Of a DNA stretch of 32,893 bases, positions 2,110-31,974 are shown piece after piece. The translations under genes were made by a program, and so were the position numbers. How positions within the stretch are numbered: position 1 is the stretch's first letter; the number at the start of each line of letters is the position of its first letter. The stretch covers positions 1-32,893 of the IMG/VR virus record IMGVR_UViG_3300003629_000007; one strand, given 5' to 3'. Source of the DNA: a virus. The notes beneath the pieces are model-generated. The model saw only the letters and a program-made list of their open reading frames with translations. It was not told the origin of the DNA and made no database searches.

Positions 2110-3330
2110 ATGGGCTTTTTCGACAAATTCCGCAAAGCGGAAACCCGGAACTTGGAAGACCCGAACGTGCCGCTTTCGGCGGCTTCGCTGTTTGATTGGG
2201 GCGGCACATCTTCGTCTGGCGTTCGCGTCAACGAGGATTCCGCACTCACGGTTCCGGCGATCTGGGATGCGGTCAACTTCCTGTCCAGCACCATCGCCAA
2301 GCTGCCGATCCATGTCTACTCTCGAGCTGATGGAAGCAAGGCCCGCCCTGAAATTGAGCGGCTGCTGAACTTTGCGCCAAGCGATTACGAAAGCAGCTTT
2401 GAATGGCGCAAGTATAGCTTCGATCAAGTTTTCACTTACGGGCGCAGCTACAGCATCATTGAGCGCAACGGCGCAAATCAGGTCATCAACATCATTCCTG
2501 TTGACCCGCGCGAGATGAAGGTGCGGGAAATACCCGACTTCAGCACGGCTCGCAAAGTTGTCCAGTACATTCACGAAAAGTCTGGCAAGGCGTACAGCTA
2601 CGAGGACGTGATCGACATTGCGTTCATGCGTCACCGGGATTTTGTCAGCCACTATGGGCCGATCAATACCAACCGAGACATCGTTGGGCTGGCCATCGCA
2701 GCCACAAAATACGGCAGTAAGGCGTTCCAATCTGGCGGCATTCCGCCTGCGGTCCTACAAGGCCCGTTCCAGTCCGGCGCAGCGGCATCGCGCGCGTCGG
2801 ATGATGTGGCGCGGACCACGGCCAAGCTGGCTCGTGACGGGCGTCCTATCATGGCCCTGCCGCTTGGCCACGAGTTGAAGTCTGTTGGCTTTAACCCAGA
2901 GCAAATGCAGCTTGTGGAAATCAAGCGGTTCCTTGTCGAAGAGATCGCGCGGATCTACAGCTTGCCGCCGACTTTTCTGCAAGACCTGACGAACGGCACT
3001 TTTTCAAACACCGAACAGCAAGACCTTCATTTCGTCAAGCACACGCTTTCGCGCTGGGTTCGCCAGTTTGAGCAGGAATTGACGTTCAAGCTGTTTGGCC
3101 GTCAGGCCGATGTGGAGGTAAAGATCGAACTGGACGGCTTGCTGCGCGGCGATGTGAAGACGCGGATGGAAGCACACGCCACCGCGATCCAGAATGCTAT
3201 TCGCACGCCGAATGAGGCGCGCGCGCTGGAAGACCTGAAGGCGATGGAAGGCGGCGACAGCCTGATGGTGCAAGGCGCGACTGTTCCGATTGCTGCGCAG
3301 GTCGGGGGCTTTGATGCCGACACCGAATGA
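2110..3330 (+). CDS. portal protein, HK97 family
   Basis: This protein forms the dodecameric portal ring at one capsid vertex through which DNA is packaged and to which the tail joins. At 406 residues it has the standard HK97-portal length. Family features visible are the early segment with SALTVPAIWDAVNFLSSTIA (about residues 44-63), an RGRSY-like patch (TYGRSYSIIERNGANQV), and the C-terminal half with EEIARIYSLPPTFL and NTEQQDLHFVKHTL, typical of the stem and crown helices. It lies between terminase and prohead protease as in HK97. The start ATG at 2110 has only a weak GGCGG upstream. Its end overlaps the protease start by 17 bases. Confidence 0.93.
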   Translation: MGFFDKFRKAETRNLEDPNVPLSAASLFDWGGTSSSGVRVNEDSALTVPAIWDAVNFLSSTIAKLPIHVYSRADGSKARPEIERLLNFAPSDYESSFEWRKYSFDQVFTYGRSYSIIERNGANQVINIIPVDPREMKVREIPDFSTARKVVQYIHEKSGKAYSYEDVIDIAFMRHRDFVSHYGPINTNRDIVGLAIAATKYGSKAFQSGGIPPAVLQGPFQSGAAASRASDDVARTTAKLARDGRPIMALPLGHELKSVGFNPEQMQLVEIKRFLVEEIARIYSLPPTFLQDLTNGTFSNTEQQDLHFVKHTLSRWVRQFEQELTFKLFGRQADVEVKIELDGLLRGDVKTRMEAHATAIQNAIRTPNEARALEDLKAMEGGDSLMVQGATVPIAAQVGGFDADTE

Positions 3331-4270
3331 GGCAATGCGCGAAGAAGCCCAGCGCGGCCTAGACTGGCGCAGCGAATACGGGCGCGGCGGCACAGAGGTC
3401 GGCATTGCCCGTGCGCGTGACATTTCAAACGGCGAAAACCTAAGCATGGAAACCGTTGGCCGCATGGCCAGCTACTTTGCGCGGCATGAGGTTGACAAAG
3501 AGGCCGAAGGCTTCCGTCCCGGTGAAGACGGCTATCCGAGCAATGGGCGCATAGCCTGGGCGCTTTGGGGCGGTGATGCGGGCCAGTCATGGGCCAACCG
3601 CATCATGGAGCAGGAAGATGACGAGCGCGCCGCACCAGTGGACGAGGGGCGCTCTGTTGTGGTATTATCGCCACAAGATATGGAGGCCGACAGCATGGCA
3701 GACAAAGAAATTCGCACTTTGGTGCAGAATGTCGAGGTTAGAGAGGATGATGAAAACATCATTCGCGTCTCGGGCTATGCCGCAGTTTTCGGCGAGGAAA
3801 CCAACATCGCGGGCATGTTCACAGAGACCATTGAGCGCGGCGCGTTTACCAGCGCTCTTGAGCGTCAAGACGATGTGGTGTTCCTAATCAACCATGACGG
3901 CCTGCCTTTGGCGCGCACGCGATCTGGCACGTTGCGTCTCAGTCAGGACGAGCGTGGCCTTTACATGGAAACAGAATTGGATGGCTCTGACCCTGACGTG
4001 CGCTCTATCGTTCCGAAAATGAAGCGTGGCGATCTGGACAAAATGTCGTTTGCCTTTATGCCGGAGCGGCAAGAGTGGAACGATAGCGGCGACATCCCGA
4101 AGCGCACCATCAAGGACTTGCGCCTGTTTGATGTGGCTATCGTGACAACGCCTGCCTATGACGGCACAGAAATCGGTTTGCGTGCGCTTGAGGCGCACCG
4201 CGAGGCACAACGCAAAAGCCAAGCGGCAAGACGCCTGCGGATGAAGGCAAAGGCTCGCTTGACCGAATAG
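3314..4270 (+). CDS. prohead protease with extra N-terminal domain
   Basis: This is the maturation protease that cleaves the capsid delta domain during head assembly (HK97 gp4-like, S78-type). The 318 residues fall in two parts. Residues 1-95 form a domain rich in conserved GRGGTEVG, RMASYFARHEVDK and GRIAWALWGGDAG segments that also occurs in other phage head proteins; its role is unknown to me. Residues 128-300 are the protease, with His194 (INHDG) and Ser245 (KMSFAF) as likely catalytic residues. The start at ATG 3314 gives the conserved PTPNEAM N-terminus and overlaps the portal end. A strong internal ribosome site precedes Met128 (position 3695), so a 191-residue protease alone may also be made. 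Confidence 0.9.
   Translation: MPTPNEAMREEAQRGLDWRSEYGRGGTEVGIARARDISNGENLSMETVGRMASYFARHEVDKEAEGFRPGEDGYPSNGRIAWALWGGDAGQSWANRIMEQEDDERAAPVDEGRSVVVLSPQDMEADSMADKEIRTLVQNVEVREDDENIIRVSGYAAVFGEETNIAGMFTETIERGAFTSALERQDDVVFLINHDGLPLARTRSGTLRLSQDERGLYMETELDGSDPDVRSIVPKMKRGDLDKMSFAFMPERQEWNDSGDIPKRTIKDLRLFDVAIVTTPAYDGTEIGLRALEAHREAQRKSQAARRLRMKAKARLTE
3682..3697 (+). promoter_or_regulatory. internal ribosome site and in-frame start inside the protease gene
   Basis: TGGAGG lies eight bases before an in-frame ATG at 3695. Translation from here would give a protein starting MADKEIRTL, exactly where an ordinary stand-alone prohead protease would begin. This is seen in the sequence; actual use is inferred. 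Confidence 0.5.
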
Positions 4271-29184: not shown

Positions 29185-29508
29185 ATGACCGACTATTCAA
29201 TCAGCGCCCACAACTACAACCCAGACCACGAGCATGACAAAGCGCACGAGATCGACATGCGCGTGTTATCCCAAGCAATCAAGCTGTCCGATGCGTTGCT
29301 GGACGTGAAGGCATCACGGCTTGGGCATTCGGAAAATGATAACACCGTGGGCCTCGCCGTATCTCGCTTGCTTGACGCGGGGTTGATTGCAGAACACAGC
29401 GCAGATCCGCGCGGCTGGCCAACTTACCGCGTCACAATCGCTGGTTTCAAAGCCGCTGGCGTTAAGCCGCCCTTGTGGGTGGTTGACGGTGACAGCAACA
29501 CAATATAG
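29185..29508 (+). CDS. winged-helix-like protein, unknown
   Basis: A 107-residue protein with a winged-helix pattern: LSQAIKLSDALLDVKASRLGHSENDNTVGLAVSRLLDAGLIAEHS followed by WPTYRVTIAGF as wing. The N-terminus is His/Asp-rich (HNYNPDHEHDKAHEID), suggesting metal binding or flexibility. It ends ten bases before the structured region at 29518. It may regulate the downstream helicase-methyltransferase pair. AAGGTG is a weak ribosome site. Confidence 0.5.
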   Translation: MTDYSISAHNYNPDHEHDKAHEIDMRVLSQAIKLSDALLDVKASRLGHSENDNTVGLAVSRLLDAGLIAEHSADPRGWPTYRVTIAGFKAAGVKPPLWVVDGDSNTI

Positions 29509-29517
29509 GCTAAACCG

Positions 29518-29569
29518 GCGCGCCTAGGGTAGCACCCGAAAGGTCAGATCCTCCCCTGACTTGGCGCGC
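29518..29569 (+). ncRNA. compact three-way-junction RNA candidate before the helicase gene
   Basis: P1 GCGCGCC (29518-29524) pairs with GGCGCGC (29563-29569). Inside are P2 GGG (29527-29529)/CCC (29535-29537) and P3 AGGTCAG (29541-29547)/CTGACTT (29556-29562, one G-U) closed by an eight-base loop ATCCTCCC. The loop complements the GGAGG ribosome site of the helicase (about 29587-29591), so it could hide that site. No known riboswitch was recognised. The 88-base gap is otherwise gene-free. Confidence 0.55.
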
Positions 29570-29596
29570 GCACAAAGGGAGAGCGATGGAGGTCGC

Positions 29597-30979
29597 ATGA
29601 CTATTCAGGAATATAGAGATTTTATAGCGTCAAAGGCATTGGCGAAAAAGTGGCGCGGATTTGATCCGCAGCCGATGAACGCACACATGAAAGCGCACCA
29701 AGTCAACGCTGTTGATTTTGCTCTGCGCGCCGGATCGTCGGCATCGTTCCTTGATACAGGTTTGGGAAAATCTCTGTCAGAACTGGAATGGGCGCGGCAG
29801 GTGGTCAAGGAAACCAATATGCCCGTATTGATCCTAACGCCGCTTGCGGTCGCTGCGCAAATGGTGCGCGAAGGCGTTAAGTTCGGCATTGATGCCAGGC
29901 AGGTGCGCGACCCATCAGATGTTGTTAAGGGGATCAACGTCGCAAACTATGAGCGGTTGCCCAAGCTGGACACGAGCGTGTTTGGCGGCGTCGTTTTGGA
30001 CGAAAGCAGTATCTTGAAGTCATTCGCCGGTCGCACTCGCAACATGCTTATGGATGCGTTCAAGGATTGCCGATACAAGCTGGCCGCGACCGCAACGCCA
30101 AGCCCAAACGATCACATGGAACTTGGTAACCACGCAGAGTTTCTAGGCGTCATGCGCCAGCAGGAAATGCTTTCCAAGTGGTTTATTAATGACACGTCAA
30201 CGGCATCGCAAGACTGGCGGTTAAAGGGCCATGCGGTTGAAGACTTTTGGTCATGGGTGGCGTCATGGTCGCGCTGCGCAACGCTTCCAAGCGATTTAGG
30301 TGGTGATGATGCTGGATACATACTGCCCGAGATCGACCGGCGCATTCATGAGGTCGCAGCAGATCGGCAAGCTGACACACAAGGCATGTTGTTTCGCATC
30401 CCGGAACTTAGCGCGACCAGCTTCCACGCGGAAAAGCGCCTTACAATGCAAGCAAGGTGCGAAAAGGCGGCAGAACTTGCCAACCATGACAAGCCGGTGA
30501 CGGTGTGGTGTGAGACAAACGAGGAAAGCAAGATGCTTTCCGAAATGATCGACGGCGCGCAAGAGGTTCGTGGCGACATGAAACCAGATGAAAAAGAAGC
30601 GCGTTTACTTGGCTTCGCAGATGGTGACTTTCGCGTGATGGTGACTAAACCAAAGCTAGCCGGATTTGGCTTGAACTGGCAGCATTGCGCGCACGCTGTA
30701 TTTGCCTCGATCAGCTTTTCGTATGAGCAACACTATCAAGCCGTTCGCCGCTCATATCGTTTTGGTCAGACGGGGCAAGTCAGAAACGATATTGTAATTG
30801 CAGACACGGAAGGTGCAATCTGGCACACAATTCACGGAAAGGCAGAGAAACACGCAGAGATGAAGCGGCGCATGGCCGATGCTATGAAGCGCGCCCAAAC
30901 AAGCGCAGAAACGCGCGTAAAGTATGACAGGCCAATAGATTTGGCATTTCCAACTTGGATCAAGGAGCAAGCAGTATGA
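29597..30979 (+). CDS. SNF2-type DEAD-like helicase/translocase
   Basis: This 460-residue protein is a superfamily 2 ATPase. Walker A is DTGLGKS (residues 53-59), motif II is DESS (135-138), the LAATATPSPND segment is motif III, and the C-terminal lobe has QAVRRSYRFGQTGQ (motif VI of SNF2 proteins). It probably translocates on double-stranded DNA. It overlaps the methyltransferase start by four bases. A full start is at ATG 29597 with TGGAGG five bases upstream; a longer reading from 29561 crosses the RNA structure and is rejected. Confidence 0.85.
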   Translation: MTIQEYRDFIASKALAKKWRGFDPQPMNAHMKAHQVNAVDFALRAGSSASFLDTGLGKSLSELEWARQVVKETNMPVLILTPLAVAAQMVREGVKFGIDARQVRDPSDVVKGINVANYERLPKLDTSVFGGVVLDESSILKSFAGRTRNMLMDAFKDCRYKLAATATPSPNDHMELGNHAEFLGVMRQQEMLSKWFINDTSTASQDWRLKGHAVEDFWSWVASWSRCATLPSDLGGDDAGYILPEIDRRIHEVAADRQADTQGMLFRIPELSATSFHAEKRLTMQARCEKAAELANHDKPVTVWCETNEESKMLSEMIDGAQEVRGDMKPDEKEARLLGFADGDFRVMVTKPKLAGFGLNWQHCAHAVFASISFSYEQHYQAVRRSYRFGQTGQVRNDIVIADTEGAIWHTIHGKAEKHAEMKRRMADAMKRAQTSAETRVKYDRPIDLAFPTWIKEQAV

Positions 30980-31974
30980 AGCAAGCAGAGTATCAAGGCA
31001 AAGCATGGGCTATCCACGCGGAAACAGATTGCATTGAAGGCATGTGGGCAATGCCCGAAAACAGCGTAGATTGCATGATTACGTCGGTTCCGTTCGGTGA
31101 TCTTTTTGTCTACAGCGACAGCGAGCGTGATCTTGGCAACGCCGGTGAAGGCGCGGCCTTTGCGGAGCAGTATAAATTCTTTGCAGAGGCTCTAACGCGC
31201 GTCATGCGACCAGGCAGTATATCTTGCATTCACTGCACTGACCTGCCGATGCGAAAAGGCAAGCATGGCGCTATCGGCCTTATGGACTTTAGCGGCGAAC
31301 TTATCAAAGCACACACAGATGCGGGGATGGTTTACCATGGCCGCGCAACGATTTGGAAAGATCCGGTTGTTGAGATGCAACGCACGAAAGCGGTTGGTTT
31401 GCTTTACAAGCAGATCCGCAAAGACAGCGTTATGAACCGCGTCGGGATGCCTGACTATATGCTTTTCTTTCGCAAGGACGGCGAGAACCCGCGCCCTATC
31501 CAGCATGCAGCGCCAGGCGACACAGATCAATCAACAAAAATCGCGCGCGAATGGCTGGATGATCTTCGCCGCCAAGGACTTTGCGCTGACGTGCCTGACG
31601 ATGTGGCGCTTGAGCATCTTATGAGGGACGCTGAATTTGACGTGATGGAATGGCAGCAGCTTGCATCGCCTGTATGGATGGACATTAAGCAAGGCAATGT
31701 CCTGCGCAGCTTTAGAGACGCCAAGGGGCCGAATGACGAAAAGCACGTTTGCCCGTTGCAGCTTGACGTTATTAAGCGTTGCCTGCGCCTATACACGCGA
31801 CCCGGTGATGTAGTCATGGACCCGTTCAACGGCATTGGCAGCACGGGATATGAGGCGGTGCGCTCTAATCGTCGGTATCTCGGATTTGAACTCAAAAAGG
31901 AATACGCGGAGCAGGCAAACAAGAACTTGCAAGATGCCGAGCGTCATAGCTTGGACCTGTTCGCCACCGCTTAA
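30976..31974 (+). CDS. DNA methyltransferase (N6-adenine/N4-cytosine type), variant motif IV
   Basis: This 332-residue enzyme is a type II-like methyltransferase. Motif IV reads TSVPFGD (residues 36-42), where the usual DPPY/SPPF second residue is replaced by Val. The AdoMet-binding motif I DPFNGIGSTG is C-terminal (282-291). The order IV before I places it in the beta class. It begins inside the helicase stop (ATGA) with AAGGAG nine bases upstream. The pair may modify phage or host DNA. It could protect against restriction, but its sequence specificity is unknown. Confidence 0.85.
   Translation: MKQAEYQGKAWAIHAETDCIEGMWAMPENSVDCMITSVPFGDLFVYSDSERDLGNAGEGAAFAEQYKFFAEALTRVMRPGSISCIHCTDLPMRKGKHGAIGLMDFSGELIKAHTDAGMVYHGRATIWKDPVVEMQRTKAVGLLYKQIRKDSVMNRVGMPDYMLFFRKDGENPRPIQHAAPGDTDQSTKIAREWLDDLRRQGLCADVPDDVALEHLMRDAEFDVMEWQQLASPVWMDIKQGNVLRSFRDAKGPNDEKHVCPLQLDVIKRCLRLYTRPGDVVMDPFNGIGSTGYEAVRSNRRYLGFELKKEYAEQANKNLQDAERHSLDLFATA

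Follow-up and report, generated by a model that had tools for sequence, protein, structure and literature searches.

An int-alpA-family RNA upstream of a phage helicase gene has the predicted layout of a translational switch

Results

We analyzed a viral DNA stretch of 32,893 nucleotides (1–32893, hereafter the window), a siphophage genome or genome fragment encoding terminase, portal, major head, tape measure and tail J proteins, together with an annealing protein, an O-like replication protein and an HNH protein. Within it, a helicase gene follows an upstream ORF on the same strand and is overlapped at its end by a DNA methyltransferase gene, with which it probably shares an operon. The gap between the ORF and the helicase gene holds a structured RNA (Table 1). 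A sequence-only reading of the locus had folded positions 29518–29569 into a three-way junction with 7-bp P1, 3-bp P2 and 7-bp P3 stems, the last with one G–U pair; P1 and P3 (about 7 bp) were recovered as described, whereas P2 has 4 bp and an AGC loop. The junction reaches a minimum free energy of −25.3 kcal/mol, whereas shuffled sequences average −15.6 kcal/mol (z = −3.64), and 1 of 200 shuffles did as well. The 97-nt leader as a whole is less striking (energy z only −1.49), so the case rests on comparative data.

Table 1 Features of the helicase leader and flanking genes in the window
Feature	Position	Strand	Description
Upstream ORF	29185..29508	+	107 aa, function unassigned; stop 9 nt 5′ of P1, the usual spacing
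Rfam RF02996 (int-alpA RNA) match	29517..29582	+	Model 1–71; 36.8 bits, cut-off 35.8, E = 2.7e-6
P1, 5′ strand	29518..29524	+	GCGCGCC, 7 bp; partner 29563–29569
Junction UA	29525..29526	+	Motif CUAG, conserved; upper case in Rfam consensus
P2 hairpin	29527..29537	+	GGGU-AGC-ACCC, from the fold
Junction GAA	29538..29540	+	Motif CGAAA, conserved; Rfam match and relatives
P3, 5′ strand	29541..29547	+	AGGUCAG, ~7 bp, one G–U; partner 29556–29562
L3 (P3 loop)	29548..29555	+	AUCCUCCC, eight bases; partner common to PK′ and SD
L3 bases toward SD	29550..29554	+	CCUCC/GGAGG (L3:SD)
L3 bases toward PK′	29551..29555	+	CUCCC/GGGAG (L3:PK′)
P1, 3′ strand	29563..29569	+	GGCGCGC; pairs with P1 5′ strand
PK′ strand	29577..29581	+	GGGAG, pseudoknot partner of L3, 7 nt past P1; covariation
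P4 hairpin	29583..29596	+	GCGAU-GGAG-GUCGC, SD in loop, abuts ATG; arm covariation
Shine–Dalgarno (W2)	29588..29592	+	GGAGG, second word copy, 4 nt 5′ of start codon
DNA helicase	29597..30979	+	Helicase_C; phrog_62/phrog_16; controlled gene in the proposed reading
N6_N4 DNA methyltransferase	30955..31974	+	Overlaps helicase end

The P3 loop (L3) had also been described as complementary to the GGAGG before the helicase ATG, and the CCUCC within the loop bears this out; the nearer second complement, PK′, had been missed, as had the position of the Shine–Dalgarno (SD) sequence inside a second hairpin, P4. In isolation, L3:PK′ and L3:SD have equal computed energies of −7.0 kcal/mol each, a calculation that leaves out pseudoknot loop costs. 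The words of the window are plain, purine-rich and SD-like, so that the window alone is no proof of a switch. Two further candidates were rejected: a mini-ORF, MEVA* (ATG GAG GTC GCA TGA, 29586–29600), whose stop overlaps the helicase ATG as ATGA and whose own start reads ATA in several relatives, and a hammerhead-like core (GAAA after P2), which by inspection is missing the CUGANGA segment.

A permissive cmscan of positions 29400–29700 assigned the RNA to int-alpA RNA, a full-length match with a thin margin over the gathering score; a fast Rfam scan covering the full window returned no match, RF02996 having been missed by the fast filters. The RNA has the complete P1/P2/P3 junction of the family with its CUAG and CGAAA motifs. 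The CUAG junction formed part of the descriptor with which we selected relatives, yet it also occurs in helicase leaders collected via protein homology. Relatives 5′ of the same or an adjacent helicase scored 43.9–52.1 bits, apart from one at 34.4 bits; a Klebsiella phage copy reached 63.6 bits, and relatives mostly scored 44–64 bits. The earlier view of an unrecognized RNA needs correcting, since the RNA belongs to a known family; no Rfam riboswitch model matched in either the fast or the permissive scan. Rfam types RF02996 as an sRNA gene, and int-alpA RNA is listed in the literature from some E. coli strains. The family takes its name from a place between integrase and alpA, whereas the window copy precedes a helicase. 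The integrase–alpA position is a positional label only; relatives found by pattern and by Rfam precede many other genes too. The window RNA is a member of a catalogued family in a gene setting that its name does not suggest.

Helicase relatives are encoded at 80 viral loci, at each of which the 110 bases upstream were read. The RNA stood directly before the helicase at about 26 loci, several of them with quite different stems, and about 50 loci were without it. A descriptor comprising P1, UAG, P2, GAA, P3 and P1′, run on all loci, gave 37 matches, in every one of which L3 was found to form a pseudoknot with a strand shortly past P1′. On a reversed-sequence control it gave 2, which argues against a DNA-level element (an attachment or recombination site, or an inverted repeat) and against chance folding. 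The GC-rich inverted repeat GGCGCGCC and the naming of the family for its place beside integrase genes would suit such an element, but the RNA is always in coding orientation ahead of a start codon, and its stems hold 76 G–U pairs against 23 A–C mismatches, a ratio to be read knowing that the descriptor tolerates G–U better. We give this explanation virtually no credence.

A scan of viral contigs with a single pattern found at least 120 loci. In a sample of 90, the genes downstream of the RNA formed 44 unrelated protein clusters, the helicase being over-represented through the search design. They include helicase, HNH, AP2-HNH, NUMOD3, endonuclease VII-like and integrase genes, and further tail tube, tail chaperone, methyltransferase, GDP-mannose dehydratase, restriction endonuclease and superinfection-immunity family genes. 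The largest group other than helicases consists of HNH, AP2, NUMOD3/GIY-YIG-like and endonuclease VII-like genes (L099, L104, L134, L176 and relatives). In proteobacterial phages and satellites alike, the module is found in front of homing endonuclease and cargo genes. Since helicases often occur without it, the RNA is a portable module rather than a component of a helicase system, and the expectation that it would be kept wherever the helicase gene remains did not hold. The many unrelated clusters and the helicases that lack the RNA also leave the earlier suggestion of a sensor for AdoMet, or one specific to the helicase, unsupported. The diversity of the clusters weighs against a ligand riboswitch in general, in which the conserved junction (CUAG...CGAAA...) would bind a metabolite such as AdoMet and L3, PK′ and the SD would form the expression platform. 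Conservation of the junction nucleotides does extend across distant phages, E. coli and Klebsiella, and such a platform would have two exclusive states; the downstream clusters point to no common metabolite, however, and no riboswitch family was matched. A riboswitch is very unlikely in our estimation; its ligand may be a general signal or an ion.

In 55 of 104 cases, no more than 20 nt separate the stop codon of the upstream gene from P1, and the distances peak at 8–13 nt; this leaves little room for a promoter. Judging from the size of the ribosome footprint, P1 presumably stands at about the leading edge of a ribosome terminating on the upstream gene. On the downstream side, a 93-aa ORF lies between the RNA and the helicase in L007/L008 (2646) and L081 (3646), and in L009 the same scaffold is directly 5′ of the helicase. 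L081 is a contig of a Verrucomicrobiales MAG with the same helicase and RNA as the phage contigs of its group, and may be a misbinned phage contig.

In bacterial genomes, RF02996 was found in 7 of 289 Alphaproteobacteria (Rfam search) and in 51 of 398 sampled Pseudomonadota, with up to six copies per genome; a genome scan with the helicase as query gave only two loci. The classical members, in E. coli satellite-like elements at yicC and a Klebsiella phage, lie by integrases or in the corresponding place and share PK′, the SD copy and P4. A U-run follows P1 in the Rfam enterobacterial consensus (directly past P1 in L083, 3046–3056, and L084, 3050–3058), whereas the window type is without it; this run could be an intrinsic terminator yielding a free small RNA. 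P2 loops are often palindromic (GGCC, UAGCUA; for example in L099 and L075), which could allow loop–loop dimers. Some contigs hold several copies. L142 has two int-alpA-type leaders 2.2 kb apart (1039–1090 and 3242–3293, minus strand) with near-identical scaffolds; their words differ (CACAGA and CGUAGA), and each word has its match in the PK′ and SD copy of the same leader. One bacterial contig, L282, has three RF02996 matches within 2.5 kb (1151–1218, 1851–1918 and 3591–3658, minus strand), possibly decayed tandem copies, in which the second word is not obvious.

Beyond the Rfam structure line of RF02996, which shows neither pseudoknot nor P4, the RNAs have one word common to three strands: L3 carries its complement, and PK′ and W2 carry the word. 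PK′ lies about 8 nt past P1′ (6–11 nt, with offsets mostly 7–11), and W2 about 21 nt past it (offsets mostly 18–24), where it overlaps the SD region inside the P4 hairpin, 4–11 nt before the start codon; its end lies at most 12 nt from the start codon in 109 of 116 RNAs. Examples of L3/PK′/W2 are CACAG/CUGUG/CUGUG (L099), CGUAG/CUACG/CUACG (L104), UCACUC/GAGUGA/GAGUGA (L123), CUCCGCA/UGCGGAG/UGCGGAG (L215), UCCACAC/GUGUGGA/GUGUGGA (L203) and, in E. coli, ACCUU/AAGGU/AAGGU (L083).

We assessed this agreement by permutation, comparing the match of each L3 with its own tail to that with permuted tails, in 154 junctions (117 distinct L3) collected without requiring any pseudoknot. Over the 117 distinct loops, L3 covaried with the PK′ window (z = 21.7) and with the W2 window (z = 15.8), and gave no positive signal in adjacent windows (z = −1.3 and 0.0) or an upstream control (z = −2.2). 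In a non-redundant set of 55 RNAs with L3 more than two edits apart, the values were 14.4 for PK′ and 11.7 for W2, with none of 2000 permutations reaching the observed match and a flanking window giving a null result (z = −1.0); both pairings are missing in about 8 of these 55 descriptor matches. In thirty of the 55, W2 pairs over 5 bp or more and PK′ over 4 bp or more; in 21 of the 30, W2 has no GGAG, GAGG or AGGA core (e.g., CUGUG, CUACG, UAAUGAA, GUGUGGA, UACGGA), so the agreement is not explained by a generic SD consensus. The P4 arms covary as well (z = 16.1; 95 distinct stems in 124 RNAs). Compensatory changes in relatives, which the sequence-only reading had set as its own check, are abundant, with many pair types across P1–P3; since the descriptor demanded those pairs, they serve as supporting evidence, and the unbiased tests are PK′, the SD copy and P4. 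Of two MAFFT alignments, one (model R1) retained only 7 pairs and was left unused because MAFFT does not hold structure, and in the other (A3) the pseudoknot slid by one base between rows, the permutation tests being used instead.

PK′ and W2 pair with overlapping, shared L3 bases in all 124 RNAs; the two pairings are thus mutually exclusive. Two exclusive pairings, one masking the SD (L3:SD z = 11.7–15.8), are what characterizes a translational switch, and the earlier proposal of such a layout, a structured RNA whose P3 loop covaries with the ribosome-binding site, is borne out. Mean duplex energies are −6.65 kcal/mol for L3:PK′ and −5.83 kcal/mol for L3:W2. This average advantage of 0.8 kcal/mol would accord with PK′ being the sole real pseudoknot and a degenerate standby ribosome site that the SD merely resembles, without any switch, and an essential pseudoknot in the active timP form does enable initiation (PMC11228461). 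The 3′ tail of 16S rRNA, however, pairs far better with the W2 region (−7.96 kcal/mol) than with PK′ (−4.68 kcal/mol), so that PK′ is generally no ribosome site, and SD copies follow L3 even when the word differs from a standard SD. We regard a standby site as extremely unlikely.

Discussion

Covariation shows P1, P2, P3, L3:PK′, L3:SD and P4, together with their location before start codons. A cis-acting translational switch is in our view the probable role of this int-alpA-family RNA, which would sit between two genes carried by a single phage transcript; from this anatomy we infer the alternation of the two pairings in the cell, the assignment of on and off, and the trigger. The three-way junction would present L3 to two competing partners. 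Pairing with PK′, a decoy strand 6–11 nt past P1, would form a compact pseudoknot that leaves the SD in the P4 loop free and translation on, and pairing with the SD word in that loop would block the ribosome and turn translation off. During transcription, L3:PK′ should form first, with the SD left free. Because both pairings use the same L3 bases at near-equal energy, stabilizing or melting the junction would tip the balance between them. Such a change could come from a bound protein, from a ligand recognized by the conserved junction, or from a ribosome that terminates on the upstream gene some 10 nt short of P1.

The L3 word may instead act on other transcripts. As a trans-acting antisense RNA of the P4 CI or P1/P7 C4 sort, the junction would be released from the leader by cleavage or termination, and its word would block the ribosome-binding sites of matching transcripts, for example those of a superinfecting relative, with the diverse words setting specificity and PK′ merely protecting the free RNA. 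The Rfam classification as an sRNA gene, the terminator-like U-run of enterobacterial members, the great diversity of words although three strands must change together, and the near-identical L142 scaffolds with different, individually matched words all speak for this. So do precedents: CI RNA pairs with two sites (seqA, seqC) of its own transcript (PMC4825925), and c4, which acts at a ribosome-binding site, determines P1/P7 heteroimmunity (PMC12197685). Against it, the RNA is always beside its own target SD, the stop often about 10 nt upstream leaves scant promoter room, the U-run is missing in the window type, a nearby PK′ would mask L3, and the downstream genes are mostly endonuclease, cargo and structural rather than immunity genes. 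We therefore judge a trans-acting antisense RNA unlikely as the main explanation, while noting that a cis switch and a trans antisense role are compatible with each other.

Comparison with known systems clarifies what is particular to the cis switch. C4 (RF01695, without a match in the permissive cmscan of the window) and P4 CI are likewise phage or satellite RNAs on the transcript of their target, and the words in C4 loops complement a ribosome-binding site as those of CI complement two sites, much like L3; both act in trans, whereas the window RNA has both complements within ~25 nt downstream, one of them in a local pseudoknot. RNA structure also covers the ribosome-binding sites of the free-standing phage homing endonuclease genes mobE, I-TevI and segB (PMC3014915). 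Those structures are described as sequestering the site, while int-alpA has a conserved three-way junction and a loop with two competing partners. In preQ1-type translational riboswitches and timP mRNA, too, a pseudoknot or alternative structure governs SD access; the int-alpA word is variable and self-matched rather than a conserved aptamer–SD contact, and no ligand is known for int-alpA. The new part would be this regulatory layout, in which a translational switch carries its SD word a second time as a decoy; we did not find such a layout described in the literature searched; the founding int-alpA paper (10.1093/nar/gkx699) lay outside that search.

We lean toward a broader view of int-alpA as a portable, self-addressed switch, in which a fixed scaffold carries a variable word that fits its gene's own SD as well as the decoy. 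Mobile endonucleases and cargo genes would thereby bring orthogonal translational control with them, perhaps along with cross-talk or immunity between phages that depends on the word. A family filed as an sRNA, common in sampled Pseudomonadota genomes and abundant in viral contigs, gains an anatomy and a testable job: switching translation in cis by means of a three-strand code. Its position before homing endonucleases and cargo may account for the way such mobile genes restrain their expression within phage transcripts, and variable words on a fixed scaffold could also supply a set of orthogonal regulators of translation.
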